A stretch of 64,000 nt of DNA, from contig NZ_FOEE01000003.1 in assembly GCF_900110555.1 (NCBI RefSeq), forward strand, positions 310,001 to 374,000, given 5' to 3'. The stretch is from Trujillonella endophytica. Lineage in GTDB: Bacteria > Actinomycetota > Actinomycetes > Mycobacteriales > Geodermatophilaceae. Every line of letters starts with the position of its first letter. Position 1 is the first letter of the stretch. Of this stretch, positions 1,438 to 39,398 are shown piece by piece. The notes beneath the pieces were generated by a model. The model worked only from the letters and a program-made list of their open reading frames with translations, was not told the DNA's origin and did no database searches. The position numbers and the translations under genes were made by a program.

Positions 1438-1912
1438 CGGCCACGCACCGCCTCATCGGGTTCCGGGTGCGTGGCCTGCGGATCGTGATCGGTGCTCATG
1501 ACTCTCTTCGACGAGGGGACGGAGCCGCGATCGGGCCCGTGGGCAGTCAACGCGGGGGCGGGGCCGCGCGTTCCGATCATCCGCCACTGCCCGGTCCGTG
1601 AGCGGTCCGGACCGCCCGGCGGGACGGATGGGACGGACGTGCACGGGGTGACGGCGTGTGGGACCGGTTCGGTCCGCCACCTCGGCATCGGCACTACAGT
1701 CGGTTCCGACCGGATCACTCGACGCCCCGAGGTCTCGAGCATCGTCCGCCGTCGGTGTCGCGGCTCGTGCCGGCACGGCCGCCCGCCGCGTCAGCCCCGA
1801 TCGAACAGGCTCAGAACTCGCTCATGACCGCACCACCTGCCCGGCCCGCCGACGTCCTCGGCCGCGGGTCCTCGACGTCGCCCGCGCCCGACCGCCGGAG
1901 AGGGGAGCGCGC
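1438..1912. other. Intergenic region between divergent genes
   Basis: No convincing gene lies in this 475-bp gap between the leftward CNNM gene and the rightward GtrA operon. It holds a perfect 14-bp palindrome at 1602-1615 (GCGGTCC/GGACCGC), two GGGACGG-type repeats near 1621-1637, and a possible -10 hexamer (TACAGT) near 1694 on the plus strand. It presumably carries both divergent promoters. Open frames here show no recognisable protein features. Confidence 0.4.
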
Positions 1913-2422
1913 ATGACCGGGCACCCCCGCGGACTCCTCGCCCAGCTGGTCCGGTTCCTGCTCGGCTCGGGGCTCGGACTGGTGGTGGACCTCTCGGTCT
2001 TCGCGATCGCGATCGCCGCAGGGGCGCCCGCATGGGCGGCCAACGTCCTCAGCGCCGGGTGCGCCGTCGTCGTCGTCTACCTGTTCGTCACGAAGTACGC
2101 CTTCGCCCACGGGCGGTCCCGGGCCTCGTTCGCGATGTTCGTCGCGTGGTACGCGCTGTCCATCGTCGTCTTCTCGGCGCTCATCGAGCTGACGCGCGAG
2201 GGGACGGGATGGCCCGCCTTCGTCTGCAAGCTGGCGTCGCTGCCGCCGTCCTTCGCCGCCAACTTCGTGGCCAGCCGCCTGCTCCTGCGGCCTCGCCCGG
2301 CGGACGGACCGACCGGCGGGGACGCCGTCGCTCCAGAGCCGGTAGGGCCGGCGCTGCTCGCCGATCGCGACCACGCCGGTGCCGGCGGACGGCGGGCGGT
2401 CCGGCAGCAGGAGGGAATGTGA
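1913..2422 (+). CDS. GtrA-family polytopic membrane protein
   Basis: A 169-residue GtrA-like protein with four predicted membrane helices (about residues 8-28, 34-56, 71-95 and 103-125) and a short charged tail. GtrA proteins are small integral membrane proteins proposed to flip polyprenyl-phosphate-linked sugars or to assist glycosyltransferases that use them. The ATG is chosen because a purine-rich GGAGAGGGGAG lies just upstream and the helices begin soon after; a longer frame upstream lacks any membrane or family signal. It is the first gene of a five-gene operon whose members overlap. The stop overlaps the GTG of the next gene (ATGTGA). Confidence 0.85.
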   Translation: MTGHPRGLLAQLVRFLLGSGLGLVVDLSVFAIAIAAGAPAWAANVLSAGCAVVVVYLFVTKYAFAHGRSRASFAMFVAWYALSIVVFSALIELTREGTGWPAFVCKLASLPPSFAANFVASRLLLRPRPADGPTGGDAVAPEPVGPALLADRDHAGAGGRRAVRQQEGM

Positions 2423-3009
2423 CCGGGAGGGGTGACGTGGGCTCTGCGCCCGGCATCGTCGACGCGCTGCTGTTCGACCTCGACGGCACCCTGGTCGACA
2501 CCCGAGCGGCCAACTACGAGGCGTACCGGGCGGCGTTCGCCGAGTCCGGCCACGAGCTCACGTCCGAGCAGTTCGCCGGCACCTGGGGCCGGGACTCGCG
2601 GGACTTCATCCCCGACCTGCTCCCCGGCCTCGACCGGCCGGGAGTCGATGCCATCCGGGCCGCCAAGAGCCGCCGGTACGCCGACCTGCTGGACCGGACC
2701 CGGGCCAACGACGCGCTCGTGGGCTTCCTGCGGCTGGTCGCGCCGACGCACCGCACCGCGCTGGTCAGCACGGCCAAGTCGCTCAACGGCCGGCAGATCC
2801 TCGAGACGCACGGGCTGACCCCGCTGTTCGACGTCGTCGTCTGGGGTGACGACGTCGCGCGGAGCAAGCCCGATCCGGAGGGCTACCTGCGGGCCCTGGG
2901 GGCGCTCGGGGCCGACCCGGCGCGGAGCCTGGCCTTCGAGGACTCCGAGACCGGCCGGCAGGCCGCGATCGCCGCGGGCATCCCCGTCCTCGAGGTGCCG
3001 CACTTCTGA
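2419..3009 (+). CDS. HAD-superfamily phosphatase or phosphomutase
   Basis: HAD-family hydrolase of about 196 residues. Motif I is FDLDGT with the nucleophile Asp20 and acid/base Asp22, motif II is the LVST segment, motif III is the Lys of RSKPDP, and motif IV is the acidic FEDSETG. The cap domain is the alpha-helical type of beta-phosphoglucomutase-like enzymes. A second in-frame GTG at 2437 has a better-spaced GGGAGG, so the protein may be six residues shorter. It probably dephosphorylates or isomerises a small sugar or polyol phosphate made in the same operon; the substrate cannot be read from sequence. Its TGA shares bases with the ATG of the next gene. Confidence 0.85.
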   Translation: MTGRGDVGSAPGIVDALLFDLDGTLVDTRAANYEAYRAAFAESGHELTSEQFAGTWGRDSRDFIPDLLPGLDRPGVDAIRAAKSRRYADLLDRTRANDALVGFLRLVAPTHRTALVSTAKSLNGRQILETHGLTPLFDVVVWGDDVARSKPDPEGYLRALGALGADPARSLAFEDSETGRQAAIAAGIPVLEVPHF

Positions 3010-5279
3010 TGGGAAGCCTCCGCTACTCCCGGGGCCGGCTCGCGCTCATCGCCGTCGCGCTCACCTCCCTGGCGGTCTTCACCGCCGTGTGCTGGTCGGA
3101 CCTGGCCGACATGTGGGCGCAGCTGTCGGACCGCCTGTCCGGCGAGCAGTGGATCCTGCTGGGCGTCGCCGCACTGGTCCAGCTCGCCGGGCACCTGCTC
3201 CGGGCCGCCCGGACCAAGGTGGTCATCGACAAGGTGCGGATCGGCAGCCTGGCGGGCCAGTTTCGCCATCTCTCGATCGGGTACCTGTTCAACCTCGTCT
3301 ATCCGCTGCGCGTCGGCGAGGTGGTCCGCTCCTACCTGATCGCCAAGACGCTGCGCATCAGCTTCCTGTACACGCTGCTGGCCGTCGTGCTGGAGCGACT
3401 GATCGACATCGTCCTGGTCTCGGGCGCCTTCCTCGTCTTCCTCGCCGTCGTCGGCGGGCCGGTCTCCGGCGTCGTGCCGATCACCGCCGCCGTGGCCCTC
3501 GTGGTGTCCCTGGTCGCCATCGCGGCGTTCGTCGCACTCGTGCGGGAGAACCGCCTCCTGCTGCGGCTCGCGTGGCGGGTCACCAGTTGGTTCAACGGCG
3601 ACCTGGAGAACCGGGCCCGCTTCAAGCTGTGGTCGGTGATCTTCGGCTTCCAGCGCTTCCTGCGCGATCGCCGACTGCTCGCCCGCTACGGGGTCCTCGC
3701 CCTCGCCTCCTGGCTCTGCTACGCCGCCGCGGCGGTCATGGTGGCGGCGACGGTGATCCCGGAGATGACCGACCGGGACGGCTCCGTCGCCGCCGCGGCG
3801 CCGTCCGTCGCGGTCAGCTCCGGAGTGGGCAACAGTGCCCCCGGGCGCTACCTCGCCGACATCGGCGGCTTCCTGGCCGACAGCACCGACCTGACTCCCA
3901 CGGACGTGGCGACGCTCGCCGCCGCGATCTGGCTCGTCACCAACCTGCCCGTCCTGCTCGTCGCCGTGGTCGCCGTGTTCGTCAACTGGGCGCGGCGGAT
4001 CAGCGACCCGGTGGCGGAGGCCGAGCCGGCGCCGTCGGACCGCTACGTGAACAAGCTGCGCCGCGAGGAGGACATCTCGGCGTCGATGACGCACTTCCTC
4101 GACACCTACTTCCGCCGTCAGCACCTCAGCCAGGTGATGCACCGGCTGGAGGTCGACGGCAATGTCAGCCTGGTCCGCTTCTTCAAGGGCGGTTCGAACG
4201 CCGTCACCCTGCTGGCGACCAACGGTTCCGGTGAGCTGTTCGTCAAGAAGATGGTGCCGCTGGAGCACGCGCACCGGCTGAAGAACCAGCACACCTGGCT
4301 CGCCGAGCGCGTCGACCACGAGCAGCTGGTGACGGTCCTGCGCGAGCGCACCGCCGTCGACCACTACTCCATCGACCTGGAGTACCGGCCCAGCAGCGTC
4401 CCGATGTTCGAGTACGTCCACGAGAACTCCCTCGCCGAGAGCGAGGCGAAGATCGCCGAGCTCTGGGAGTACATGTACGACCGGGTCTACTCGATCGAGC
4501 CCCCGGCGTACCGGCCGGACGTCCGCGACGACTACGTCGCCGAACGGTTCGTGCTGCGGGTCCGCGCCGCCGCCCGCTCCCACCCGGCGCTGGCCGAGGC
4601 CCTCAAGGGCGACCGGATCGTCGTCAACGGCCACGAGATGGACAACTTCGACCGGGTGCTGGACCGCATCCAGCGGGCTCCCGGCGCCTGGGACGACCTG
4701 GCCGTCTTCCAACCCAGCTCGCACATCCACGGCGACCTCACCGTCGACAACATCCTCGTGGACCTGCCCGGACGCGACGTCCTGGTGATCGATCCCTCGG
4801 ACGACAACCAGCTGCGCGGCCCGGTGATCGACTTCGCCCGCCAGATGCAGTCGCTGGCCTACGGCTACGAATTCCTCAACGAGGACGAGGAGCCGGTGCT
4901 GCTGAGCGAGCAGGACGGCGTCCCGGAGATCACCTACCGCGACGCCCGGTCGGCCCGGTACGCCGAGCTGGCCGACTTCGTGACCACCGAGATCATGCCC
5001 CGCAGGCTGCTCCCCGCCGAGCAGCGCGCGGTGCTCTTCCACGTGGGGCTGTTCTACGGTCGGATGCTCACCCACCGCGTGGCCATCAACTCCGGGACCG
5101 TGCTCAAGTACTACGGCGTGTGCATCCAGGCGCTCAACCGGTTCGTGGAGCAGTACGACCTGCCCGCACACGGGCAGGCGGACGAGACCCTCGGCGCCGA
5201 GCCGAGGCAGACCCCCGGCGCGGAGCCGAGGCAGACCCTCGGCGCGGAGCCGAGGCATGAGGAGGTCCTGACGCGGTGA
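3009..5279 (+). CDS. Lipid flippase-like membrane domain fused to a phosphotransferase (kinase) domain
   Basis: A 756-residue two-part protein. Residues 1 to about 330 form a polytopic domain of the lysylphosphatidylglycerol-synthase transmembrane/YbhN type (LERLIDIVLV in a helix; conserved YPLRVGEVVRSYL), a family linked to flipping of lipid-linked substrates. From about residue 350 follows a cytosolic domain of the aminoglycoside/choline-kinase fold: FVKK, then HIHGDLTVDN with catalytic Asp576 and Asn581, and Asp595 in VIDPSDD as metal ligand. The C-terminus carries three copies of an eight-residue repeat. The neighbours suggest that it phosphorylates a precursor used by the nucleotidyltransferase, or handles the lipid-linked product. 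MprF-type enzymes have a flippase of this family but an unrelated second domain. Confidence 0.8.
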   Translation: MGSLRYSRGRLALIAVALTSLAVFTAVCWSDLADMWAQLSDRLSGEQWILLGVAALVQLAGHLLRAARTKVVIDKVRIGSLAGQFRHLSIGYLFNLVYPLRVGEVVRSYLIAKTLRISFLYTLLAVVLERLIDIVLVSGAFLVFLAVVGGPVSGVVPITAAVALVVSLVAIAAFVALVRENRLLLRLAWRVTSWFNGDLENRARFKLWSVIFGFQRFLRDRRLLARYGVLALASWLCYAAAAVMVAATVIPEMTDRDGSVAAAAPSVAVSSGVGNSAPGRYLADIGGFLADSTDLTPTDVATLAAAIWLVTNLPVLLVAVVAVFVNWARRISDPVAEAEPAPSDRYVNKLRREEDISASMTHFLDTYFRRQHLSQVMHRLEVDGNVSLVRFFKGGSNAVTLLATNGSGELFVKKMVPLEHAHRLKNQHTWLAERVDHEQLVTVLRERTAVDHYSIDLEYRPSSVPMFEYVHENSLAESEAKIAELWEYMYDRVYSIEPPAYRPDVRDDYVAERFVLRVRAAARSHPALAEALKGDRIVVNGHEMDNFDRVLDRIQRAPGAWDDLAVFQPSSHIHGDLTVDNILVDLPGRDVLVIDPSDDNQLRGPVIDFARQMQSLAYGYEFLNEDEEPVLLSEQDGVPEITYRDARSARYAELADFVTTEIMPRRLLPAEQRAVLFHVGLFYGRMLTHRVAINSGTVLKYYGVCIQALNRFVEQYDLPAHGQADETLGAEPRQTPGAEPRQTLGAEPRHEEVLTR
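5184..5255 (+). repeat. Three in-frame 24-bp tandem repeats
   Basis: Three directly adjacent 24-bp units, nearly identical, encode (E/Q)T(L/P)GAEPR three times at the C-terminal end of the flippase-kinase protein. Units 2 and 3 differ at one base. Unit number is likely to vary between strains by slippage without shifting frame, changing only the length of a disordered tail. Confidence 0.9.
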
Positions 5280-6043
5280 AGGCCGTCATCGCCATCCCGG
5301 CCTACAACTGCGGCCCGCAGATCGGCCGCGTGCTCGACGAGATCACCGACGAGCTGGCCGCGCGGGTGGCCGAGATCTGGGTGATCGACAACCGCAGCAC
5401 CGACGACACCCTGCAGCGGGCGCTGGACCACCGGCGGTCGGGCCGGCTCCCCAACCTGCGGGTGTTCCGGAACCGGCAGAACAACAGCCTGGGCGGCACC
5501 CACAAGGTGGCGTTCGAGCACGCCCGCGCCGCGGGCCACACCCACGTGGTCATCCTGCACGGCGACAACCAGGCCAGGAGTGACGAGGCCGGGCTGCTGC
5601 TGGACCTCGCCGAGGCCCATCCCGAGACGCAGACGGTGCTCGGCTCGCGCTTCAGCCGGCATTCCCGCCTGCACGGCTACGACGCGAAGCGGATCTGGGG
5701 CAACCGGGCGCTCAACGCCGTCTACAGCGTCGTGGCCCTGCGCCGGCTCCAGGACCTCGGGTCGGGGCTGAACCTGTTCGCGCTGCGCGACCTGGACCCG
5801 GCGACCTACCTGCGGTTCGCGAACCATCTGACCTTCAACTACGAGCTGATCCTCGACCTGGTGCGCCGGGGCGTGCGCTTCGCCTACCTGCCCATCACCT
5901 GGCGCGAGGAGGACCAGGTGTCCAACGCGCGCAACTGGAACATCTTCCGGACCGCGCTGCGCAACCTCGCGCTGTGGCGACTGGGCCGGCGGACGTCGGA
6001 CCCCGCTCCGGACCGGGACTACGAGTGGGACGAGGTCCGGTGA
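5276..6043 (+). CDS. GT2-family glycosyltransferase
   Basis: A 255-residue soluble GT-A fold glycosyltransferase of family 2. The N-terminal nucleotide-binding part has AIPAYNCGPQIG and VIDNRSTDDT; the expected acidic metal-binding site is HGDNQ. The later GSRF and GSGLNLFALR segments resemble dolichol-phosphate mannosyltransferase-like enzymes. There is no C-terminal membrane helix, so the partner for membrane anchoring could be GtrA. The GTG start overlaps the stop of the kinase gene (GTGA). It probably moves an activated sugar, or a nucleotide-activated group made by the next gene, to a polyprenyl-phosphate or wall glycan. Confidence 0.85.
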   Translation: MKAVIAIPAYNCGPQIGRVLDEITDELAARVAEIWVIDNRSTDDTLQRALDHRRSGRLPNLRVFRNRQNNSLGGTHKVAFEHARAAGHTHVVILHGDNQARSDEAGLLLDLAEAHPETQTVLGSRFSRHSRLHGYDAKRIWGNRALNAVYSVVALRRLQDLGSGLNLFALRDLDPATYLRFANHLTFNYELILDLVRRGVRFAYLPITWREEDQVSNARNWNIFRTALRNLALWRLGRRTSDPAPDRDYEWDEVR

Positions 6044-6783
6044 CGGCCACCCTGCAGGTCCTCATGCCGATGGGCGGCCTGGGTACGCGCTTCCGCAAGG
6101 TGGGCATCGCCACGCCCAAGCCGCTCATCGAGGTCGACGGCGGTCCGATGTTCCAGCGGGCGCTGCGCTCCCTGGCCGCCTGGGACGGGGCCAGGCGGGT
6201 CGTGGTCGTGGTCCGGGCCGACGACGACGCCGAGCACGGCCTCACCGGGCACGTGCTCGACGCCGAGCCCGGTGCCGACATCGTCCTGCTGCACCACGAC
6301 ACGCGCGGGGCGGTGGAGACCTGCCTGCAGGCGCGGGACCACCTCGATCCGGACCTGCCGCTGGTGATCATGGACTGCGACATCGCCTTCGACAGCCCGG
6401 CGTACTTCGCCGCCCTGGCCGGGGCGGTCGAACGGCAGGACCTCGACGGACTGCTGCTGTCGTTCCGCTCCACCGAGCCGCGCTACAGCTTCGCCGAGGT
6501 GGACGCCGACGGCCTCGTCGTCCGCACCGCCGAGAAACAGGCCATCTCCGCCGACGCCCTCATGGGCGTCTACTCCTTCACCTCGGCCCGGGTCTTCCTC
6601 GAGGCGGCCGACCGGCTGATGGCCCGCCAGATCGACGCCGCCATGCCCGAGTACTACGTCTCGCTCGTCTTCAACGAGCTGATCGCCTCCGGGCGCCGCG
6701 TCGGCCTCGTGCGCGGCGACTTCTACTGCTTCGGCACCCCCGAGGAACTGGCCGCCTACCAGGCGACCGGCCGACCGGTCTGA
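6040..6783 (+). CDS. Sugar-phosphate nucleotidyltransferase-like protein
   Basis: A 247-residue nucleotidyltransferase of the GlmU/RmlA/LicC group. The signature loop GGLGTRFRKVGIATPKPLIEV sits at residues 12-32 (Gly-rich loop, then PKP with the catalytic-type Lys), DCDIAF near residue 108 supplies the metal-binding Asp, and EKQAIS resembles the EKP motif. The start is the GTG overlapping the GT2 stop; the gene closes the operon. It should form an NDP-linked sugar or polyol from a phosphate and an NTP, fitting the kinase and HAD enzyme upstream. The activated molecule is unknown. It ends 19 bp before the convergent stress-protein gene. Confidence 0.82.
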   Translation: MTATLQVLMPMGGLGTRFRKVGIATPKPLIEVDGGPMFQRALRSLAAWDGARRVVVVVRADDDAEHGLTGHVLDAEPGADIVLLHHDTRGAVETCLQARDHLDPDLPLVIMDCDIAFDSPAYFAALAGAVERQDLDGLLLSFRSTEPRYSFAEVDADGLVVRTAEKQAISADALMGVYSFTSARVFLEAADRLMARQIDAAMPEYYVSLVFNELIASGRRVGLVRGDFYCFGTPEELAAYQATGRPV

Positions 6784-6802
6784 CCGGCGCCGGCCGGCCG
6801 GG

Positions 6803-7714
6803 TCAGCGCTCCAGCGGGACGACGGCGACCGGGCAAGCGGCGCGGTGCAGCAGCCCGTAGGTGGTCGATCCCACCCGCCCGAACCGGCCGCGGTGCCGGT
6901 GCCCGACCACCAGCAGCTCGGCGCCAGCCGAGGCGTCGAGCAGCGCCGCGGCGGCGCGGTCGCGCACGACCGTCTCGGTGATCGGCACCCCGGGCTCCCG
7001 GTCCCGCCACCCGGCGACGGCCCGGGACAGCTTCCCGCGCTCGTCCTCCTCCACGACGCTCCAGTCGACGAACGGCCCGAACCCCCCGAGGGCGGCCTCC
7101 AGGCTCGGGTCTCGCCAGGCGTGCACGGCCTCCAGGCCCGTGGCGCGGGACGCGGCCTCGGCCACCGCGAACGCCAGCACCTCGTCGTCGCCGGAACCGC
7201 CCTCGATCCCCACGACGACCGGCCGGGTCCGCGCCGCGGTCTCGTCCCACTCCTCGGGGAGGGCGATCACGGGGCACCGGGCGTGCTGGGCCACCGCGCC
7301 GGCGGTCGATCCGAGCAGCAGGCCGGGCAGCCCGCCCAGGCCGCGCCGCCCGATCACGACGAGCGCGGCGTCGGCGGACAGCGCGAGCAGCCCGTCGACG
7401 GGGTGGTCGTCGACCACCGCCGCCGTCACGTCGCCCGAGCCGGTCTCCTGCCGCACGGTGTCGGCGGCGGCCTCCACCAGCAGGGTCGCGCTCTCCTCGA
7501 ACCGGGCCTTGACCTCGCGCCCGGCCATGGGCAGGGCGTCGTCGAACCCCTGCCAGGGGGTCACGTGCACCACCAGCAGTCCCACGCCGCGGCGGCGGGC
7601 GGCCTCTGCCGCGTACAGGGCGGCCTGCACCGACGGCTCGGAGCCGTCGACGCCCACGACGACCCGCCCGCCCGCGGACACCCCTGCGCCGGTCACCGGT
7701 TTCCTCGCACGCAT
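6803..7714 (-). CDS. Tandem-domain universal stress protein
   Basis: This 303-residue protein has two UspA domains, about residues 14-155 and 160-303. Domain 1 has the full ATP-binding pattern G-x2-G-x9-G-S (GRRGLGGLPGLLLGS). Domain 2 has GHRHRGRFGRVGS, where the second glycine of the pattern is replaced by His, so only one domain may bind ATP in the classical way. Tandem Usp proteins are numerous in actinobacteria and act in dormancy, hypoxia and stress. The ATG precedes MRARKP; no strong ribosome binding site is visible. Monocistronic by position. Confidence 0.9.
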   Translation of the reverse strand: MRARKPVTGAGVSAGGRVVVGVDGSEPSVQAALYAAEAARRRGVGLLVVHVTPWQGFDDALPMAGREVKARFEESATLLVEAAADTVRQETGSGDVTAAVVDDHPVDGLLALSADAALVVIGRRGLGGLPGLLLGSTAGAVAQHARCPVIALPEEWDETAARTRPVVVGIEGGSGDDEVLAFAVAEAASRATGLEAVHAWRDPSLEAALGGFGPFVDWSVVEEDERGKLSRAVAGWRDREPGVPITETVVRDRAAAALLDASAGAELLVVGHRHRGRFGRVGSTTYGLLHRAACPVAVVPLER

Positions 7715-7800
7715 CGGTCTGCACCCGGGTCGGCATCGGCGTCGGTCATCGGACGATCCCACCGGACGGGGGCGTCCCGGGGCAAGCCGTGCGCCGACGG

Positions 7801-7836
7801 CGACGGCCGCCCGGTCGGGGGACCGGGCGGCCGTCG
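7801..7836 (-). terminator. Strong hairpin terminator after the LysM gene
   Basis: A perfect 16-bp GC-rich stem (CGACGGCCGCCCGGTC and its complement) closes on a 4-nt GGGG loop, 27 bp beyond the stop of the leftward LysM gene. There is no T tract, as is usual in high-GC actinobacteria. Confidence 0.75.
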
Positions 7837-7863
7837 GCGCGCTCTGGAGGACTCGGGGGAGCC

Positions 7864-8904
7864 TCAGCCCACGTAGTTCACGTGCACGTGGTCGAAGTGG
7901 TTGGCGGTGACGCCGCCGCGGTTCGCCATGGGCTGCCACGCACCCGTGGGCGACGTGAGGATCCGCTGCTGCCAGATGACGTACTCGACGCCGAGCGCGT
8001 CCCAGTTGTCGCGGTGGTACTGCGCGATCGCATCGCCCAGGGCCGCGTCGGACAGGCACATGTAGTCGATCGCGAGGCCGGACGGGTGACCGTGCGGGTC
8101 CACGGCGCTGGGCCGGGTTCCGCCGAGGGTGATGGCCGCGGCGCCCGGGACGTTCGACACGACCGCGTTCGCGGCATTCTGGGCCTGGGGTCGCGTGGCG
8201 CCCGCGCTGTTGGTGATCCGCGCGATCGCCTGCACGGCCGCCGCCGCCGGCTGGACCGCCGGAGCCGGCGCGGGTGCCGGCGCCGGGGCGGCCTCGGGGG
8301 CAGGAGCCGGAGCGGGGGCAGGGGCCGGCTCGGGGGCGGGGGCGGGAGCGGGGGCAGGGGCCGGCTCGGGCGCGGGGGCCGGCTCGGGCGCGGGGGCCGG
8401 CTCGGGCGCGGGGGCCGGCTCCGGGGCCGGGGCAGGGGCCGGCGCGGGGAGGGGCACGGAGTCGCCCGCGCCACCGGTCGCCGGGATCTCGGCCGCAGTG
8501 CCGGTCACGGCGAGCACCTGGCCGGGGAGGATCAGGTCGGGGTTCGCGCCGATCACCCCGGCGTTGCGCTGGTAGAGCTGGCGCCACGGCTGGTCGAAGG
8601 AGGCGGCGATCCGCGAGACGGTGTCCCCGCGCTCGACGGTGTAGGACCCGTCGGGGGCGGCGTGCCGGCCGTAGGTGTCGGTCCGGTCCTCGTAGGTCTC
8701 CGGCGCGGCCGGGGCGTGCCCGGTCGGCAGCTGGGTGAGCAGTTCGGGGAGATCGCCGAAGCCGGACCAGCCGGCAGTGGTCGGCGCCGCCTGTGCGGTC
8801 GAGCTCAGCAGGCCGATGCCGACGACGGTGGCGCCCGCGGCGACGGGAGCGCGCGACAGGACCTTCTTCGTGCGGACGTAACGGGGAGCGCAGTGCTTGG
8901 GCAA
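7864..8904 (-). CDS. Secreted LysM protein with Pro-Ala repeat linker and peptidase-like C-terminal domain
   Basis: An exported cell-wall protein of about 346 residues. A basic N-terminus and hydrophobic stretch ending STAQAA form a signal peptide. A LysM domain (YTVERGDTVSRIA to LPGQVLAV, about residues 92-137) binds peptidoglycan. A linker of PAPAPE repeats spans the wall. The C-terminal ~115 residues (GHPSGLAIDY and HFDHVHV) match the ARB-07466-like domain found in actinobacterial wall hydrolases, with a metal-site look (His/Asp/HxH). The TTG start is inferred: it is the first plausible start after the riboswitch, with GGAGA 10 bp upstream; an in-frame GTG at 8925 is the alternative. Controlled by the c-di-AMP riboswitch upstream. 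Confidence 0.8.
   Translation of the reverse strand: MPKHCAPRYVRTKKVLSRAPVAAGATVVGIGLLSSTAQAAPTTAGWSGFGDLPELLTQLPTGHAPAAPETYEDRTDTYGRHAAPDGSYTVERGDTVSRIAASFDQPWRQLYQRNAGVIGANPDLILPGQVLAVTGTAAEIPATGGAGDSVPLPAPAPAPAPEPAPAPEPAPAPEPAPAPEPAPAPAPAPAPEPAPAPAPAPAPEAAPAPAPAPAPAVQPAAAAVQAIARITNSAGATRPQAQNAANAVVSNVPGAAAITLGGTRPSAVDPHGHPSGLAIDYMCLSDAALGDAIAQYHRDNWDALGVEYVIWQQRILTSPTGAWQPMANRGGVTANHFDHVHVNYVG
8363..8416. repeat. 18-bp tandem repeats encoding PAPAPE
   Basis: Three identical 18-bp units (GGCTCGGGCGCGGGGGCC on the plus strand) lie inside a larger Pro-Ala-Glu repeat region at about 8259-8454. They encode the extended wall-spanning linker of the LysM protein. Length polymorphism between strains is likely. 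Confidence 0.85.
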
Positions 8905-8932
8905 GGTGGTGAGTTCTCCGATCACCGCCGGT

Positions 8933-9095
8933 GAGGTGAGCTGTCGGGTTCGGGCGATCGGTGCCCGGCCGCGATGTGCGGCTTCACCCCGAGGCGCGCG
9001 GACGCGCCGTGGACCGTGGGTCCCCCACCCCTGCCCTGTGGGGAGTGGATGTCGGCCGGTGGGCAGGGTTGGGCGGACCGGCGCGACACGCCGCC
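8933..9095 (-). promoter_or_regulatory. c-di-AMP riboswitch (ydaO/yuaA type)
   Basis: Read on the minus strand, the segment has the conserved ydaO elements in order: a 5' part with GTCGCGCCGGTCCGCC, then CCAACCCTGCCCACCGG, GGGGGACCCACGG, GGGGTGAAGCCGC, and the diagnostic 3' end CCGAACCCGACAGCTCACCT. In actinobacteria this riboswitch sits upstream of rpf, NlpC/P60 and LysM wall genes, exactly the context here. High c-di-AMP normally turns expression off. Ends are approximate, set from the conserved blocks. Confidence 0.88.
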
Positions 9096-9220
9096 ATGTG
9101 CGGAGCGCAGCCAAAACGTTACGAGTCGCTATGTCGACTGTCGCCGTGACGGAGAACACCGGAACGACTACGGCCTGTTCGCAGTGGCGTGGCGGCAAAC
9201 TATGAGGAAGGTCACGTTCC

Positions 9221-10426
9221 TCAGAGCAGGGCGGCGTGCTGAGCGAGCCCGAACGCCCCGGCGTCGGCCCCCGGCAGGTCGAGGGCCAGGTCGGCGAGCA
9301 CCCGGCCGACGGCGGTGGCGGACTTGAACCCGTGGCCGCTGAACCCGGCCGCGAGCACCACCGGCCCGACCCGGTCGAGGACGAACTCCCCGGTCGGCGT
9401 GCTGGTGTAGGTGCAGGACACGGGAGCCGGGCGCTCGGCGTCCAGCCCCGGCAGCCACCGCCGCACGAACTCCATCAGCCGGGCCAGCTGCCGGGGGTCG
9501 GCCACCCGGTCCCGCCTGTCGGGGTGGCACTCCGGGCCGGTGCCGTGGAAACCCACCTTGACGCCCTCCCCCGGGCTGGCGAGGCCGTAGACGCCGCTGG
9601 GCCACCCCTCGCCCGGGTCGGGGTCGTAGGTGAACGCCGGCCACGCGGCGCCCGGGTCCAGTGCCGGGAAGTGCGCGGGCTGCTCCTGGGTCACCCGCAG
9701 CGGGGGCAGCTGGACCGACCCGCCGAGCAGGTCGGCGGTCCAGGCGCCCACGGCGACGACCGCGGTGCGCGCCCGCACGGCGGCGCCGGCGGCGCAGCGC
9801 ACCACCACGCCGTCGCCGTCGGCCTCCACCGCCGTGACCCGACGGTGGTGCCGGACCGTCGCGCCCGCGGCCACCGCGGCGGACTGCAGCGCGGTCACCG
9901 CGGCGTCGGCGTCCACCCGGCCGGCCGTGTGCGGCTCGTGCAGCACCGGCCCCGGGAACCGCAGGCCCGGCCACCGGTCCTCGGCGGCGGCCACCGACAG
10001 CCACTCGAACGGGACGCCGGCCCGCTCCATCGCCCCCGCGACGGTGACCAGCTGCTCCTGCCCGTGCGCCGCCGCCGTGGCGACGCCGGAGCCGGGGTGC
10101 AGCAGCCGGGTCCCGGTCTCGGCTTCCAGCTCGTGCCACAGCCGCCGCGCCTCGGCGACCAGCGCCTGGTGGTGCGCTTGCGCGTAGGTGCTGCGGTAGA
10201 TCCGGGAACGGCCGTGCGAGGCGCCCTGGACGTGCCCGGGGCCGAACTGCTCCAGCAGGACGACGCCGGCCCCGCGGCGGGCCAGGGACCACGCCGCGGC
10301 CGAGCCCATGACCCCGCCGCCGATCACGACGACGTCGGTCCGCGACGGCGTGGCGGCCGGGTGCAGCGCCGCGGTACCGGGGTGGGGGGCGGACGGGGAC
10401 GTCGGGGGAATCGGCTGCTCGGTCAT
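9221..10426 (-). CDS. FAD-dependent amine/amino-acid oxidase (sarcosine oxidase/MTOX-like)
   Basis: A 401-residue flavoenzyme of the DAO (sarcosine oxidase, N-methyltryptophan oxidase SolA) family. The Rossmann motif is VVVIGGGVMGSAAAWSLARR, followed by HGRSRIYR, typical of monomeric sarcosine oxidases with covalently bound flavin. GFSGHGFKSATAVG near the C-terminus is the second FAD-contact region. GAGGAG lies well placed before the ATG. It is the last gene of the SAM-riboswitch operon, so its substrate is probably the secondary or modified amino acid taken up by the transporter. SolA-like enzymes oxidise N-methyl or cyclic imino acids; the exact substrate is open. Confidence 0.85.
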   Translation of the reverse strand: MTEQPIPPTSPSAPHPGTAALHPAATPSRTDVVVIGGGVMGSAAAWSLARRGAGVVLLEQFGPGHVQGASHGRSRIYRSTYAQAHHQALVAEARRLWHELEAETGTRLLHPGSGVATAAAHGQEQLVTVAGAMERAGVPFEWLSVAAAEDRWPGLRFPGPVLHEPHTAGRVDADAAVTALQSAAVAAGATVRHHRRVTAVEADGDGVVVRCAAGAAVRARTAVVAVGAWTADLLGGSVQLPPLRVTQEQPAHFPALDPGAAWPAFTYDPDPGEGWPSGVYGLASPGEGVKVGFHGTGPECHPDRRDRVADPRQLARLMEFVRRWLPGLDAERPAPVSCTYTSTPTGEFVLDRVGPVVLAAGFSGHGFKSATAVGRVLADLALDLPGADAGAFGLAQHAALL

Positions 10427-19505: not shown

Positions 19506-20309
19506 TCAGGTGGGGCGGCCCAGCTCGCGGATGCCTTCGATGCGGGTTCCGAGCGTAGCCGTGACGCGTTCATCGGTCGCCCGCCGGGGGAGCCGGGACA
19601 GGTCGGGAGCGGTGACGAGGACGACGGACGCCCCGGCGGCCAGCGGCGCCAGGAGCCAGGCCACCGGACCGGCCTCGGCCGCGGTGCGCGTGTCGACCAG
19701 GATGCGGTCGCCCTCGCCGATCCCCAGCCGTCCCGCCAGCTCGGCGGCGGTGTCCACGATGCCCTCGAGGGTCAGCTCCAGCCCGCCGACCAGCAGGCCC
19801 GGGGCGGTGGGCTCCGGCGGCTGCCACGGGGTGAAGACGTCGCCTTGGGTGCGGACCTCGATCGCGAAGTCGCGGGCGGGCCCCGCGTAGCCGGTCATGC
19901 CCGCGCCCATGGGGTGCAGCGACAGCCCGAGCAGCTCGGGGACGTCCATCTCCTCCAGCGGGCCCAGCCGCCCCTGGTCGGCCAGCACCACGTCGGCGTC
20001 GGCCAGCGCGCCGTCGTCCTCGGCGGCCGGCTCGAACACGGTGGCGCCGCAGCTCCAGGCCGCCATCAGCACCGCGGCGGTCTGCCAGTGGGCCGGCAGG
20101 ACCAGCGCCACGCGGCTGCCCGGCCCCACGTCGAACTCCTCCTGCAGGAGATTGGCCGTCTTGGCCACCCAGTTGGCGAACGTGGTGGCCGACAGCTCCA
20201 CCCGGGAGGCGGCGACGTCGTCGTAGTGCGTGAGCAGGGGAGCGGCCGGCGCGCGACGCAGTGCCGCGCGCAGGAGGTCGGGCGGTGTGGAGGGCTTCGT
20301 GATGCGCAC
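19506..20309 (-). CDS. TIGR03089-family protein (reduced AMP-binding-like)
   Basis: A 267-residue protein resembling the N-terminal half of acyl-AMP-forming enzymes (FANWVAKTANLLQEEFDVGPGSRVALVLPAHWQTAAVLMAAWSCG region, kept here in short form). It lacks the Thr/Ser/Gly-rich phosphate loop and the C-terminal lid of real adenylating enzymes, so it is unlikely to activate a carboxylic acid. This matches the actinobacterial family TIGR03089, of unknown function and often found near wall-glycan genes. It starts with GTG and is divergent from the arabinan-precursor operon. Confidence 0.75.
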   Translation of the reverse strand: MRITKPSTPPDLLRAALRRAPAAPLLTHYDDVAASRVELSATTFANWVAKTANLLQEEFDVGPGSRVALVLPAHWQTAAVLMAAWSCGATVFEPAAEDDGALADADVVLADQGRLGPLEEMDVPELLGLSLHPMGAGMTGYAGPARDFAIEVRTQGDVFTPWQPPEPTAPGLLVGGLELTLEGIVDTAAELAGRLGIGEGDRILVDTRTAAEAGPVAWLLAPLAAGASVVLVTAPDLSRLPRRATDERVTATLGTRIEGIRELGRPT

Positions 20310-20391
20310 GCGACGAGAGTGCCCTGTGACGGGGCGGTTCCCCCCGCGCGTTCCCGGGCTGTCAGGTCACGGCGCGGTTACAGTTCCTCCG

Positions 20392-20937
20392 ATGACCGCC
20401 ACCTCCCGGAGCGCCGGTTCCCGGCTCGTACGCCTGGACCATGCACTGCTCCGCTCCACCCGGCGGGCCCTGGGCTCCACTCCCGCCGTCCCGGTGGCCC
20501 AGGGGATGTCCCACTTCGGCGAGCACGCCCTCGGCTGGATCGCGCTGGGGACGGCCGGCTGGCTGTCCGGCCGGCGCCGCGCCGACTGGGTCGCGGGCAC
20601 CGCGGGGGTCGTGGCGGCCCATGCCGCCGGCGTGGTCGTCAAGCGCGTGGTGCGGCGGGTGCGCCCGCAGCTGGAGGACGTGCCGGCGCTGGTGGCGACA
20701 CCGAGCCGCCTCTCGTTCCCCAGCGCGCACAGCTGCTCGACCGCTGCCGCCGCCGTCGGCTTCGCGCCGATGGTCGGCCGCGCTCCCATGGCCGGCCTGA
20801 CGGCAGCGATGCTCGTCTCGCGGGTGCTGCTGGGCGTGCACTACCCGTCCGACGTCGTCTCGGGGGCGGCACTGGGCGCCGGCACGGCGACCCTCGTCCG
20901 GCGGCGCCTGACCCGACTCGAAGGTAGGAAGGCGTGA
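20392..20937 (+). CDS. PAP2-family phosphatase, likely for decaprenyl-phospho-phosphoribose
   Basis: A 181-residue membrane phosphatase. The PAP2 motifs are KRVVRRVRP (motif 1), PSAHS (motif 2) and SRVLLGVHYPSDV (motif 3, with catalytic His). It matches the position and size of the Rv3807c-type enzyme, which removes the 5-phosphate from decaprenylphosphoryl-phosphoribose before DprE1 acts. First gene of the DPA operon; its stop overlaps the GTG of the UbiA gene. The role is inferred from gene order. Confidence 0.85.
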   Translation: MTATSRSAGSRLVRLDHALLRSTRRALGSTPAVPVAQGMSHFGEHALGWIALGTAGWLSGRRRADWVAGTAGVVAAHAAGVVVKRVVRRVRPQLEDVPALVATPSRLSFPSAHSCSTAAAAVGFAPMVGRAPMAGLTAAMLVSRVLLGVHYPSDVVSGAALGAGTATLVRRRLTRLEGRKA

Positions 20938-21956
20938 CCGTGACCCGCTCGCAGCCCGGCTCCCCGGACGCCGCCGTCGCCCCGGCCGGCGCCGCGCCGG
21001 CCCCGGCCGCAACCCCGGCCCCGGCCGCTCCGCCGTCCCCACCGGCCTCGCCCCCTCTGGCTCCACGCCTGGAGGGCTGGCGGGGCACCTTCGCCTGGGG
21101 CGTCGTCCGCGCCGTGCGGCCCCGGCAGTGGGCGAAGAACGTCCTCGTCCTCGCGGCTCCGCTCGCGGCGGGCAAGGTGTTCGACGTCGACGTGCTGGGC
21201 CCCACGGCCGCCGCGTTCCTGCTCTTCTGCGTGGCCGCCTCCGGCGTCTACCTGGTCAACGACACGATCGACGTCGACGAGGACCGCCGGCACCCGCGCA
21301 AGCGGTTCCGGCCGATCGCCGCGGGCATCGTGCCCAAGAGCCTGGCCCTGTCGATGGCGGCGGTGTTCTTCGTCGCCGCGCTCGTGATCGCCGTGCTGCT
21401 CACCCGGCCGGCCCTGGCCTGGGTGCTGGGCAGCTACGTGGTGATCCAGCTGGGCTACTGCCTCTTCCTCAAGAACCAGCCGGTCATCGACCTCGCGGTC
21501 GTCGCCTCCGGCTTCCTGCTGCGCGGCATCGCCGGCGGTGTCGCCGCCGGGCTGGAGCTGTCGCAGTGGTTCCTGCTCGTCGCGGCCTTCGGCTCGCTGT
21601 TCATGGTCGCCGGCAAGCGCTACTCCGAGCTGGTCCTCATCGGTGACGCTGCCGCCACCCGCAAGACGCTGCAGGAGTACTCGGGCAGCTACCTGCGCTT
21701 CGTCTGGAGCCTGTCGGCCGCGGTGACCCTGACCGCGTACAGCTTGTGGGCCTTCGAGATGGGGGAGACCCAGGACGGCGCCCCCTGGTCGCTGATCTCC
21801 ATCGCCCCGTTCGTGCTGGCGATCCTGCTGTACGCCCGGGACGTCGACAAGGGCGAGGCCGGGGCGCCGGAGGACATCGTCCTGGGCGACCGGGTCCTGC
21901 TGGCCCTCGGCGTGATCTGGGCCGCCACCATGGCGCTGGGTGTCTACGGTGTCTGA
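20934..21956 (+). CDS. ubiA: Decaprenyl-phosphate phosphoribosyltransferase (UbiA family)
   Basis: A 340-residue UbiA-fold membrane enzyme with about eight helices after an Ala/Pro-rich cytosolic N-terminal 45 residues. The diagnostic Mg-prenyl site is NDTIDVDEDRRHPRKRFRPIA, the pattern of the Rv3806c group. A second acidic loop is YARDVDKGEAG. It joins PRPP to decaprenyl phosphate, the first step toward the arabinose donor DPA. The N-terminal extension is longer and more Pro-rich than in mycobacteria. GTG starts overlap the previous stop; an in-frame GTG six bases on is an alternative. Confidence 0.92.
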   Translation: MTVTRSQPGSPDAAVAPAGAAPAPAATPAPAAPPSPPASPPLAPRLEGWRGTFAWGVVRAVRPRQWAKNVLVLAAPLAAGKVFDVDVLGPTAAAFLLFCVAASGVYLVNDTIDVDEDRRHPRKRFRPIAAGIVPKSLALSMAAVFFVAALVIAVLLTRPALAWVLGSYVVIQLGYCLFLKNQPVIDLAVVASGFLLRGIAGGVAAGLELSQWFLLVAAFGSLFMVAGKRYSELVLIGDAAATRKTLQEYSGSYLRFVWSLSAAVTLTAYSLWAFEMGETQDGAPWSLISIAPFVLAILLYARDVDKGEAGAPEDIVLGDRVLLALGVIWAATMALGVYGV

Positions 21957-23388
21957 AAAGGGACCCCGTTCCCCCCACGCCTCGCACGCTCGCAGCGGGA
22001 CCCTGCAGGGGGCCGGGCGAAGCCCTGAGACTCTGACGGGGTGGGGGCGCACCGCGCCCACGCCCGCGCTGCTCGAGCGCGTGGGCGACGAGGCCGACGT
22101 GCGCAAGGTCCTCGCCGAGGCCCGGGGCCGCGGCCTGGTCGCGCGCGGGCTGGCCCGCAGCTACGGGGACGCGGCCCAGAACGCCGGGGGGCACGTGCTG
22201 GACATGACCGGCGCGGACCGCGTGCTGGACGTGGACCTGGCCGCGGCGGAGGTCGAGGTCGAGGCCGGCATCTCGCTGGACCGGCTGATGAACCTCTTCG
22301 TCCCGCTGGGCATGTTCGTCCCGGTCACCCCCGGCACCCGCTACGTGACCGTCGGCGGGGCGATCGCCGCCGACATCCACGGCAAGAACCACCACGTCGC
22401 CGGCAGCTTCGCCCAGCACGTGCGCTGGCTGGACCTGCTGACCGCCGACGGCCAGGTCCGCCGGGTGGGTCCCGCGCAGGACCCGGCGCTCGGGGCGGAC
22501 GCCGACCCGGACCTGTTCTGGGCCACGGCGGGCGGCATGGGCCTCACCGGCGTCATCCTGCGCGCCCGGGTCCGGATGAAGCCGATCGAGTCCTCGCAGA
22601 CGCTGGTCGACACCGACCGGACGCCGGACCTGGACTCGCTGCTGGCCCTGCTCACCGAGTCCGACCACCTCTACGACTACTCGGTGGCCTGGATCGACTG
22701 CGTCGCCAAGGGCGCCCGCATGGGCCGGTCGGTGCTCACCCGCGGGCGGTTCGCGCGGCGCGACGAGCTGCCTGCCCGCAAGCAGGCGGACCCCCTGCGG
22801 TACTCGCAGGCGGTCAAGCTCTCGGTCCCCGACGTCTTCCCGCCGGGCCTGCTGAACCTCGCCACGGTGTCGGCGTTCAACGAGCTCTGGTACCGCAAGG
22901 CGCCGGCGCGGAAGCGGGACCAGCTGCAGAGCATCCCGACCTTCTTCCACCCGCTCGACAGCGTGGGCGCCTGGAACCGCATCTACGGCCCGCGGGGCTT
23001 CGTGCAGTACCAGGTGACCGTGCCGTTCGGGCACGAGGAGACGGTGCGCCGGCTGCTCGAGCGGATCAGCGGCTCCGGGCACGCCTCGTTCCTGGCCGTG
23101 CTCAAGCGGTTCGGCGAGGGCAACCCGGGGATGCTGTCCTACCCCTCGCCGGGCTGGACGCTGGCGCTGGACATCCCCGTCGTCCGGGGGTTGGCCGCGC
23201 TGCTGGACGAGCTGGACGAGCTCGTCGTGGACGTCGGCGGGCGCACCTACCTCGCCAAGGACTCCCGCGTGCGCCCGGAGGTGTTCGAGCGCATGTACCC
23301 GCGGCTGGAAGACTTCCGCGCCGTGCGTGCCCGCGTGGACCCCGACGGACTCTTCACCTCCGACCTGGCCAGGAGGCTGCACCTGTGA
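21940..23388 (+). CDS. dprE1: Decaprenylphosphoryl-ribose 2'-oxidase
   Basis: A 482-residue FAD oxidoreductase, the target of benzothiazinones in mycobacteria. FAD contacts are in VGGAIAADIHGKNHHVAGSF, and the substrate Lys is Lys440 in YLAKDSR (mycobacterial Lys418). Exactly 31 residues before it, where M. tuberculosis has the drug-reactive Cys387, this protein has Ala409 in GWTLALDIP. It oxidises DPR to the 2-keto form for DprE2. GTG 21940 is used; GTG 21949 is equally possible. Both overlap the upstream gene. The N-terminal ~40 residues look unstructured. Confidence 0.93.
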   Translation: MSTVSEKGPRSPHASHARSGTLQGAGRSPETLTGWGRTAPTPALLERVGDEADVRKVLAEARGRGLVARGLARSYGDAAQNAGGHVLDMTGADRVLDVDLAAAEVEVEAGISLDRLMNLFVPLGMFVPVTPGTRYVTVGGAIAADIHGKNHHVAGSFAQHVRWLDLLTADGQVRRVGPAQDPALGADADPDLFWATAGGMGLTGVILRARVRMKPIESSQTLVDTDRTPDLDSLLALLTESDHLYDYSVAWIDCVAKGARMGRSVLTRGRFARRDELPARKQADPLRYSQAVKLSVPDVFPPGLLNLATVSAFNELWYRKAPARKRDQLQSIPTFFHPLDSVGAWNRIYGPRGFVQYQVTVPFGHEETVRRLLERISGSGHASFLAVLKRFGEGNPGMLSYPSPGWTLALDIPVVRGLAALLDELDELVVDVGGRTYLAKDSRVRPEVFERMYPRLEDFRAVRARVDPDGLFTSDLARRLHL

Positions 23389-24140
23389 TCGACGCGCTCG
23401 GCTCCGTGGGTTCCCTGCTGCTGGTGGGCGGAACCTCCGACATCGCCGTCGCCACCGCCCGCCGCTACCTGCAGGAACGGCCGCTGCGCGTGGTCGTGGC
23501 CGCGCGCGACAGCGACCGGCGCAGCGCCGTGGTCGAGGAGCTGCGCACCGCCGGGGGGACCGTCGAGGTCGTCGACTTCGATGCTGATGACCCGGCGTCG
23601 CCGGCGCGGATGGTCGCCGCGGCCACGGCCGGCGGGGACGTCGACGTCGCCCTGGTCGCCTTCGGCCAGCTGGGCGACCAGTCGCAGCTGGCGCGGGACG
23701 CGGACGCCGTCGCCGCGCTGGCGCAGGTCAACTACGTGGCACCCGTCGTCGTCGGCACCGTCCTCGCCGAGCGGATGCGCCGCCAGGGGCACGGGACGAT
23801 CGTCGCGCTCTCCTCGGTCGCGGGGGAGCGGGCCCGGGCCTCCAACTTCGTCTACGGCTCGACCAAGGCCGGGATGGACGCCTTCTTCAGCGGCCTCGCC
23901 GACTCCCTCGTCGGCAGCGGGGCCTCGGTCCTGGTGGTCCGCCCCGGTTTCGTGCGGTCGAAGATGACCGAGGGCCTGCCGCCCGCGCCGCTGGCCACGA
24001 CGCCCGAGGCGGTGGCCGAGGCGATCGTGACCGGCGTCCGCAAGGGTCGGCACACGGTGTGGGTGCCCGGCGCGATGCGCTGGGTGATGAGCGGTCTCCG
24101 GCACGCCCCCCGCGCGATCTTCCGTAAACTCCCCCTGTGA
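23385..24140 (+). CDS. dprE2: Decaprenylphosphoryl-keto-ribose reductase
   Basis: A 251-residue short-chain dehydrogenase. The NAD(P) motif is LLVGGTSDIAVATA, the catalytic Ser lies in ALSSVAGE and the Tyr/Lys pair in VYGSTKAG. It reduces DprE1's product to decaprenyl-phospho-arabinose, the only known arabinofuranose donor. AGGAGG sits 8 bp before the GTG, which overlaps the dprE1 stop. The order dprE1-dprE2 is the same as in mycobacteria. Confidence 0.92.
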   Translation: MIDALGSVGSLLLVGGTSDIAVATARRYLQERPLRVVVAARDSDRRSAVVEELRTAGGTVEVVDFDADDPASPARMVAAATAGGDVDVALVAFGQLGDQSQLARDADAVAALAQVNYVAPVVVGTVLAERMRRQGHGTIVALSSVAGERARASNFVYGSTKAGMDAFFSGLADSLVGSGASVLVVRPGFVRSKMTEGLPPAPLATTPEAVAEAIVTGVRKGRHTVWVPGAMRWVMSGLRHAPRAIFRKLPL

Positions 24141-35078: not shown

Positions 35079-38294
<3,216 letters not shown>

Positions 38295-38426
38295 GTCCAC
38301 CCTCTCCTGCGGTGCGCGGCCCGTCGCCGCGCGGAGGCGCCGGGAAGCCTCCCACGCCGGGTGACCGGGACGCCGCGACCGGCGCGGTCCGCGGCCGGGC
38401 GCGTCGGGCCGGATACGTTCGTCCCC

Positions 38427-39398
38427 ATGGACACGCCCGAGGACCGGCCGCTGCGCGTCGTGGCGGTGACGTACTCCCCGGGGGAGACGCTCGAGGGCTT
38501 CGTGCGGTCGCTCGCCACGGCCACGACCCGGCCCACCGAGGTCGTGCTGGCCGACAACGGGTCCACCGACGGCGCACCCGAGGCCGCGGTCGCCGCGCAC
38601 CCGCACGTGCGGCTCCTGCGCACCGGCGGCAACGTCGGGTACGGCGCCGCGGTCAACGCCGGGATGGCCGGGCTGACCGAGGGCTGGGCGCTCGTGGCCA
38701 ACCCCGACGTCCGCTTCGAGCCCGGCTCGGTCGACGATCTGCTCGCCGTGGCCGACCGCTGGCCCCGCGCCGCGACCGTCGGCCCGGCGATCCGGACGCC
38801 CGAGGGCGAGCTGTACCCCTCCGCGCGCGACCTGCCGCGGCTGTCCACCGGGATCGGGCACGCCCTGGTCGGGTGGGTGTGGCCGGGCAATCCGTGGACG
38901 GCGCGCTACCGGCGCGAGCGCGAGGCGCCCCGGGAGCGGCCGGCCGGGTGGTTGTCGGGCTCGTGCCTGCTGGTGGACGTCGCGGCCTTCTCCTCGGTCG
39001 GCGGCTTCGACCCGGGCTACTTCATGTACTTCGAGGACGTCGACCTCGCCGAGCGGCTGGGGCGCCGCGGCTGGCTGCACGTCTACGCGCCGTCGGCCGT
39101 CGTCGTCCACGAGGGCGGGCACGCCACCCGGCGCGAGCCGCACCGGATGGCGCGGGTGCACCACACCAGCGCGCTGCGCTACCTGTCCGCGCGGCACCCC
39201 GGCCGGCGCAACGCGCCGCTGCGGGCGGGCCTGCGGGCGGGCCTGGGGGCCCGGATGCTGGTGTCCTACGTCAGCGGGCGGGTGGCCGCCGGCGCGCCGT
39301 TCCAGCGCCGGGCCGACGACGTCGGCCGCGCCCGGGTCCCGGGCGGGGCGAAACTGGCCCGGCCGAGCCGCGCCGCGCGCGACGGGGTGGCCCGGTGA
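38427..39398 (+). CDS. wbbL: Rhamnosyltransferase WbbL-like (GT2)
   Basis: A 323-residue GT2 enzyme with VAVTYSPGETL, LADNGSTDG, VANPDVRFEPG and, in the acceptor half, GSCLLV and FMYFEDVDLAERL, the WbbL signature. WbbL adds rhamnose to decaprenyl-PP-GlcNAc, completing the linker between arabinogalactan and peptidoglycan. It overlaps manC just as Rv3265c is next to Rv3264c. Its upstream 132 bp are shared with the divergent aftA gene and hold the promoters. Confidence 0.87.
   Translation: MDTPEDRPLRVVAVTYSPGETLEGFVRSLATATTRPTEVVLADNGSTDGAPEAAVAAHPHVRLLRTGGNVGYGAAVNAGMAGLTEGWALVANPDVRFEPGSVDDLLAVADRWPRAATVGPAIRTPEGELYPSARDLPRLSTGIGHALVGWVWPGNPWTARYRREREAPRERPAGWLSGSCLLVDVAAFSSVGGFDPGYFMYFEDVDLAERLGRRGWLHVYAPSAVVVHEGGHATRREPHRMARVHHTSALRYLSARHPGRRNAPLRAGLRAGLGARMLVSYVSGRVAAGAPFQRRADDVGRARVPGGAKLARPSRAARDGVAR

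Follow-up and report, generated by a model that had tools for sequence, protein, structure and literature searches.

What does a run of five overlapping genes near the start of a 64,000-nucleotide stretch of the Trujillonella endophytica genome (contig NZ_FOEE01000003.1, positions 310,001 to 374,000; hereafter, the window) make, and where is the product destined? The genes encode a GtrA-type membrane protein, a HAD-family protein, a fusion of a flippase-type membrane half to a kinase half, a GT2 glycosyltransferase, and a nucleotidyltransferase. We consider it probable that this operon makes its own activated sugar, passes it to a lipid-linked (polyprenyl-phospho) donor, and serves outward flipping and the decoration of a wall glycan. 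Gene content, conservation, synteny, and the predicted folds of a GT-C glycosyltransferase and of both fusion halves were computed; from these, we infer every reaction, the sugar, and the acceptor. Loci and genomes other than the window carry our own L and G numbers.

A five-gene operon and its relatives

All five open reading frames are intact and lie on the plus strand, with successive overlaps of 4, 1, 4, and 4 bp (Table 1). The reading frames and their Pfam matches bear out an earlier note on this DNA, which had described five genes of these families overlapping by 1-4 bp. The same note had named conserved co-occurrence in relatives as the check on its idea and its absence as the contrary outcome; the five genes occur together in the same order at 16 of 17 related loci (15 of the family Geodermatophilaceae plus L049), which indicates that the set is a real unit and not a chance arrangement. 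Proteins of the related loci are 48-96% identical to those of the window. The closest named relative is Blastococcus sp. CPCC 205250 (L049; fusion 86% identical). A GtrA homologue was found at 16 of the 17 loci; L065 (genome G445, from another class of the phylum) carries the other four genes, for HAD, fusion, GT2, and nucleotidyltransferase. At 15 of the 16 loci that have GtrA, 5-116 bp separate the GtrA and HAD genes; L049 alone shows a 4-bp overlap. These distances are measured from script-chosen starts, which are uncertain. Gene calls at the relatives' loci come from a simple GC3 caller that may misplace starts or miss genes.

The fusion is present in 16 of 112 family genomes, representing 4 of 12 genera, and nucleotidyltransferase matches of at least 77% identity occur in exactly these 16. 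Beyond the family, an order-level scan detected the fusion in 6 of 200 genomes (including the window's own and a weak kinase-only match, G076), a class-level profile scan in 3 of 394 (the window's own and the distant G723 and G736), and a scan of the class of G445 in 1 of 24, G445 itself. Outside the family, these scans thus returned, besides G445, only a 29% relative (G723) and kinase-level matches (G076 and G736). One named genome contig, that of Blastococcus sp. CPCC 205250, carried the fusion. Nucleotidyltransferase matches were found in 151 of 296 phylum genomes, with identities among the matches listed of 26-45%, except for the window's own and that of G445 (62%); the nucleotidyltransferase alone is therefore no marker.

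The first protein of the operon falls within the GtrA family by its Pfam score and may act as a flippase or as a membrane partner for the GT2 enzyme. The closest solved chains to the HAD protein are the TM_1254 phosphatase and beta-phosphoglucomutase (beta-PGM). Hydropathy analysis revealed no membrane segment in the GT2 protein. Its best NCBIfam relative is AglJ (E 9.4e-12, below that family's cut-off), which we take to be a dolichyl-phosphate sugar enzyme, and other polyprenyl-phosphate enzymes are also near and below cut-off; by sequence, the protein falls in the range of polyprenyl- or dolichyl-phosphate sugar synthases. GT2 proteins are 85-96% identical to the window's within the family, 70% in L065, and 45% in L071.

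Nearly the whole length of the nucleotidyltransferase aligns with the structure 4evw (E 1.5e-22). This structure, from Vibrio cholerae, is linked to BcbE-like capsule nucleotidyltransferases. BcbE itself comes from capsule loci of Gram-negative bacteria, and what it acts on is not settled. Filing the window's protein under BcbE provided no substrate, and in its available text PMC11641403 treats BcbE as a glycosyltransferase by annotation only.

In the fusion, the N-terminal half (approximately residues 14-330) matches LPG_synthase_TM at 69.4 bits (cut-off, 33.4) and scores 35.2 against TIGR00374, under the cut-off of 43.2. In a predicted model, this half aligns with MprF (VIA-align Z 15.7, root-mean-square deviation [rmsd] 4.0, 236 residues aligned). 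Both the domain and the fold thus agree with membership in the UPF0104/MprF-type flippases. The C-terminal half (approximately residues 353-717) scores 18.3 against Pfam APH, under the cut-off of 23.2, and its model aligns with glucosamine kinase (Z 12.2, rmsd 5.4, 288 aligned) and maltokinase (Z 12.0, rmsd 5.2, 295 aligned). By predicted fold and conserved residues, the second half is an APH-fold small-molecule kinase. Across 18 sequences, invariant residues are K413, H574, D576, N581, and D595 in the fusion; D20, D22, T118, K150, and D175 in the HAD protein; and G12, G13, G15, R17, K27, P28, D112, D114, E165, and K166 in the nucleotidyltransferase. Those of the HAD protein and nucleotidyltransferase, and all but K413 in the kinase, presumably correspond to the motifs of their families. 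At the C-terminus of the fusion (window approximately 5190-5262), three near-identical LGAEPRQ-type repeats add 16 residues relative to 17 aligned relatives.

Table 1. Features of the window discussed in the text
Feature	Position	Strand	Basis
Site of the GT-C gene in 15/15 relatives; none found here	1438..1912		217 nt align to L049 upstream sequence at 78%
GtrA/DPMS-type small membrane protein, 169 amino acids	1913..2422	+	PF04138 (GtrA_DPMS_TM) 39.8 bits, cut-off 26.1
HAD phosphatase or phosphomutase-like protein, 196 amino acids, beta-PGM/sugar-phosphatase branch	2419..3009	+	PF13419 (HAD_2) 91.3 bits
Flippase-kinase fusion, 756 amino acids: MprF-type LPG_synthase_TM half and predicted APH-fold kinase half	3009..5279	+	PF03706, structure model
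GT2 glycosyltransferase, 255 amino acids	5276..6043	+	PF00535 (Glycos_transf_2) 54.8 bits
Sugar-1-phosphate-type nucleotidyltransferase, 247 amino acids	6040..6783	+	PF12804 (NTP_transf_3) 45.2 bits and PF00483 (NTP_transferase) 35.2 bits, both above cut-off
PAP2-type, decaprenyl-phosphate phosphoribosyltransferase (DPPR synthase), DprE1, and DprE2 genes (arabinan donor pathway)	20287..24140	+	NCBIfam
Two LCP-family glycopolymer ligases	25412-26956, 27121-28875	-	TIGR00350 110 and 115 bits, cut-off 62.3
AftA-like arabinofuranosyltransferase	36363..39164	-	PF12250 and PF12249, above cut-off

A GT-C gene ahead of the operon in relatives

At all 15 loci with a visible upstream side (L050-L064), a gene for a membrane protein of 771-1100 amino acids (by the GC3 gene calls) overlaps the GtrA gene, by 4 bp in 14 loci and by 7 bp in one. 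In L065, a GT-C gene adjoins the nucleotidyltransferase gene on the opposite strand. Pfam names neither the upstream copy of L058 nor the copy of L065, and a second L058 copy has a sub-cut-off YfhO match. We modeled the upstream L058 protein with a mean predicted local distance difference test score (pLDDT) of 83.9 and a predicted template modeling score of 0.87. With VIA-align, this model matches Pmt4 (Z 19.1, rmsd 4.5, 370 aligned), PglB (18.1, 5.0, 431), ArnT (17.4, 5.4, 463), and AftD (15.6, 5.4, 558). Rows 1-39, 41, and 42 of the result, which we take to be GT-C enzymes or complexes containing one, span Pmt4, PglB, ArnT, oligosaccharyltransferase, AftD, and Emb down to ALG6 (Z 9.8, rmsd 4.3, 280 aligned); row 40 is a glycosylphosphatidylinositol transamidase entry (Z 10.3), and the row after 42 scores 8.4. 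Foldseek placed ArnT first (E 2.2e-5). By predicted fold, the sixth gene clearly encodes a GT-C transferase. The earlier note had credited the five genes with each step of their pathway, whereas the external transferase is this sixth gene.

Of the 16 genomes with the fusion, 15 encode a strong relative of the GT-C protein (E 1e-144 or better); among the 96 without it, only G280 does, and that genome has an analogous operon. Weak relatives (E 1e-4 to 1e-37) occur in 17 further fusion-negative genomes. Trees of the fusion (18 rows) and of the GT-C protein (13 rows: 12 of the 15 upstream copies and that of L065, with L060, L062, and L063 outside alignment A6) disagree on which genera group together. 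This disagreement hints at exchange of the GT-C gene, although long branches meet in the GT-C tree.

A search of the window's whole genome with one query protein returned no match to this GT-C family, and eight GT-C queries against 78 kb around the operon yielded nothing better than E 0.001. In L049, only 473 nt precede the GtrA gene, with no GT-C match there better than E 0.037.

The position of the operon also differs. Fusion and TIGR03089 genes are separated by 3.6-3.8 kb in 14 of 16 genomes, by 11.6 kb in G281, and by 14.2 kb in the window's genome, where the five genes are on the other side of the TIGR03089 gene and that gene now directly adjoins the PAP2-type gene. L049 has the same changed arrangement, with 6.7 kb beyond the operon aligning at 84% in the same order, in addition to the upstream similarity listed in Table 1. 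The ratio of nonsynonymous to synonymous change (dN/dS) between the window and L049, by a simple NG86 count, ranges from 0.06 (GT2) to 0.28 (GtrA). Because L049 shares the changed upstream sequence and these ratios are low, selection on the five genes probably continued after the upstream change.

Since a GT-C of the usual family was not found in the window's genome, a different GT-C would be needed for the last step, possibly one of two GT87 proteins encoded in the window. These lie at 24137-25351, directly after DprE2, and at 49490-50788, and are 33% alike (match at 49574-50683). The first, which has no match in G281, G282, or G240, is a candidate substitute GT-C.

The proposed pathway and its alternatives

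In the pathway that we favor, the HAD protein would remove phosphate from a sugar phosphate, the kinase domain would phosphorylate C1, and the nucleotidyltransferase would form a nucleoside diphosphate (NDP)-sugar. The GT2 enzyme would then transfer the sugar to polyprenyl phosphate, and the MprF-type half, GtrA, or both would turn the lipid-linked sugar outward. Finally, a GT-C, usually encoded by the first of six genes in the operon, would move the sugar to a wall-linked glycan, most likely an arabinan-containing polymer encoded nearby. The earlier note had likewise proposed that the genes decorate a wall glycan or make a polyprenyl-phospho donor.

Several observations weigh against this pathway. 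The acceptor is deduced solely from neighboring genes, and the window's copy is without its last step. For the NCBIfam equivalog families listed, all five proteins score under the cut-off, so no substrate is assignable. There are two flippase candidates (GtrA and the MprF-type half) and a GT2 without a predicted membrane segment, which leaves their roles unsettled. L065, whose fusion is 53% identical, has no BLAST match to GtrA at 1e-5. The kinase match depends on a fusion model of middling confidence (mean pLDDT 65). When the fusion was run through plain Foldseek, phosphoinositide 3-kinase-like kinases came first with TM-scores near 0.1, and we discarded these rows.

Alternatively, the operon could make and flip a glycosylated phospholipid, as gpgSDF does for glucosaminyl-phosphatidylglycerol in Pseudomonas, with GtrA and GT-C being incidental or serving another step. 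The UPF0104/MprF family includes GpgF, the predicted gpgSDF flippase (PMC12713373), and the window's operon has no GT-C that we found. However, GtrA is accompanied by the overlapping GT-C in 15 of 15 relatives, and the GT2 is nearest AglJ, whereas GpgS belongs to GT4 in the available text of the same source. We therefore regard a phospholipid product as improbable.

A second alternative concerns the kinase, which might act at the membrane and phosphorylate either the lipid carrier or a sugar linked to it, giving a phosphosugar decoration or carrier recycling with no sugar-1-phosphate. Variant operons bear on this point. L068 (G280, 4045-15081) and L069 (G222, 8728-16852) encode GtrA, GT2, a tandem nucleotidyltransferase, HAD, and a membrane protein that carries a P-loop PRK/uridine-kinase domain as a fusion. 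In the two loci, PRK matches at 98 and 102 bits and GT87 at 16.5 (under its cut-off) and 32.7 (over it). Their HAD proteins have no BLAST match to the window's at 0.01. This kinase is non-homologous to the APH-fold kinase and is again fused to a membrane protein, so membrane tethering of a kinase seems to have arisen twice, as a membrane-bound substrate would lead one to expect. L068 additionally encodes two GT-Cs of the same family and a 196-amino-acid protein without a Pfam match, and lies approximately 11 kb from TIGR03089. L069 is in the same neighborhood, on the far side of purK rather than between TIGR03089 and LCP. L071 (G523, from another class) encodes a 45% identical GT2, a 32% identical nucleotidyltransferase, and, as separate proteins, an LPG_synthase_TM protein (25.7 bits, below cut-off) and one of 493 amino acids. 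The 493-amino-acid protein, encoded between the flippase and nucleotidyltransferase genes, has no Pfam match, contains an HGDxxxxN stretch, and matches the kinase-bearing G723 fusion (35% identity, E 3.6e-5). Taken together, these variants support the view that the fusion combines two functions within a single pathway. Against a membrane-bound substrate, the kinase-like protein of L071 is separate and has no predicted membrane segment; moreover, both types of fused kinase occur alongside a HAD and a nucleotidyltransferase, as would suit a pathway through soluble precursors. Phosphorylation at the membrane appears to us just as improbable as a phospholipid product.

Slightly less likely still, the five genes could be an idle remnant of a six-gene system after loss of the GT-C. 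No GT-C of the family was found in the genome, and the block is off its usual site. In contrast, all five frames are intact, the low dN/dS relative to L049 argues against decay, L049 shares the changed upstream sequence, and the two GT87 proteins are GT-C candidates. An inositol-lipid product was dropped, there being no inositol-phosphate synthase or CDP-alcohol transferase among the five genes.

AmgK is an APH-fold kinase, and MurU is a nucleotidyltransferase. Together with the HAD phosphatase MupP, they act in series on a sugar phosphate to make UDP-MurNAc (PMC5371407), and by the logic of these families, we infer that the HAD, kinase, and nucleotidyltransferase of the operon would make an NDP-sugar. 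The route differs from the proposed pathway in being a recycling route that is not lipid-linked, whereas the operon's kinase is fused to a membrane half. The window's proteins are not assigned as orthologs: the nucleotidyltransferase scores 18.7 bits against a MurU cut-off of 250, and the HAD protein 33.8 bits against 359 for MupP (NF009696).

On the membrane side, a GT-A enzyme, a GtrA flippase, and a GT-C constitute a recognized multi-component transmembrane glycosylation system, and the three-component systems reviewed add the common sugars glucose, galactose, and N-acetylglucosamine (PMC8035078, Table 1). CsbB-GtcA-YfhO, GtlA-GtcA-GtlB, and GtsABC share with the operon a GT-A, a GtrA-family protein, a GT-C (in relatives), and a wall-polymer gene setting (PMC8035078). 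Unlike these systems, the operon adds the HAD, the kinase, the nucleotidyltransferase, and an MprF-type second flippase candidate; its GT2 has no predicted membrane segments, and the window's copy has no GT-C. The fusion's membrane half belongs to the family of the UPF0104/COG0392 flippases (AglD C-terminal domain, MprF N-terminal domain, and GpgF), for which a kinase fusion partner is not mentioned in the available text (PMC5898192, PMC12713373). Archaeal UPF0104 proteins, for which flippase activity is predicted, have a conserved neighborhood with a PMT/STT3-related enzyme and an AglD-like glycosyltransferase (PMC5898192). The three-component pentofuranose addition of Citrobacter youngae likewise uses a lipid-linked donor, a flippase, and a GT-C outside the cytoplasm, but with a polyprenyl phosphoribose synthase donor and a MATE flippase, and no kinase or nucleotidyltransferase is named in the portion available (PMC11127046). 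The Actinoplanes gsf cluster was rejected as a match; it is GtrA-dependent, but no flippase-kinase fusion, HAD, or nucleotidyltransferase was seen in the accessible text (PMC13390465).

The earlier note knew of no characterized pathway with this gene set, and we found none in the open-licence literature, most subscription papers lying outside that search. Its suggestion of an undescribed system holds in part: the GT-A, GtrA, and GT-C mechanism class is known (PMC8035078), while the attached sugar-activation module and the flippase-kinase fusion look new. More tentatively, and with less confidence than we place in the pathway itself, the operon may represent an undescribed class of wall glycosylation. 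In such a class, a kinase would be tethered to lipid-linked-sugar membrane machinery, having arisen twice with unrelated kinases (APH-fold on MprF-type and P-loop PRK-type on GT87-like); the NDP-sugar would be dedicated and perhaps new, the LCP/TIGR03089 neighborhood would vary in a serotype-like manner, and GT-C genes would be exchanged separately from those for the donor.

The wall-polymer locus

DPPR synthase, DprE1, DprE2, two LCP ligases, and AftA occur together in the window, indicating that an arabinan-type wall polymer pathway is encoded here. NCBIfam equivalogs are above cut-off for the three arabinan-donor proteins (NF008978, 409 bits; NF053785, 679; NF053786, 366), and the PAP2-type protein is below. 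PAP2-, DPPR synthase-, and DprE1-like genes are all present in the fetched stretch of four relatives (L055, L056, L060, and L061), and LCP matches occur in that of eight. The neighborhood may resemble the mycobacterial purK-purE-fadE25-LCP region.

For comparison, we examined the TIGR03089 locus in 20 hand-picked genomes of the 96 that lack the fusion. In 14 of these 20 loci, an LCP gene is directly beside TIGR03089 with no gene called between them; L101 has a 26% LCP match beside TIGR03089. Arabinan-donor genes lie between TIGR03089 and LCP in L092 and L093. L082 (G282, of the window's genus) has LCP, DprE2, DprE1, and UbiA without the cassette, TIGR03089 not being separately called. GtrA and a GT2-like gene are found at L089, and GT-C and GT2 matches at L098. 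These loci indicate that the cassette fills an optional slot in a wall-polymer locus.

Between TIGR03089 and c8 (the homologue of window 17167-17988), L089 encodes GtrA, a 355-amino-acid GT2-like protein (approximately 2 membrane segments), and a 1131-amino-acid protein (approximately 13). These genes may form a simple three-component system in that locus.

A gene from a cluster to which an acyltransferase-3/SGNH protein belongs (the L058 copy) adjoins the nucleotidyltransferase gene in 10 of 17 loci (L050, L055-L062, and L064) and is one gene off in L051 and L053. Given that it borders the cassette, O-acetylation of the same polymer is possible.

Our analysis places a variable decoration island inside the arabinan/LCP wall locus of Geodermatophilaceae. 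The operon's own activation module points to a sugar not otherwise present and provides a route to find that sugar. Moreover, because two unrelated kinases are each fused to a membrane partner, sugar activation may be coupled to export or transfer.

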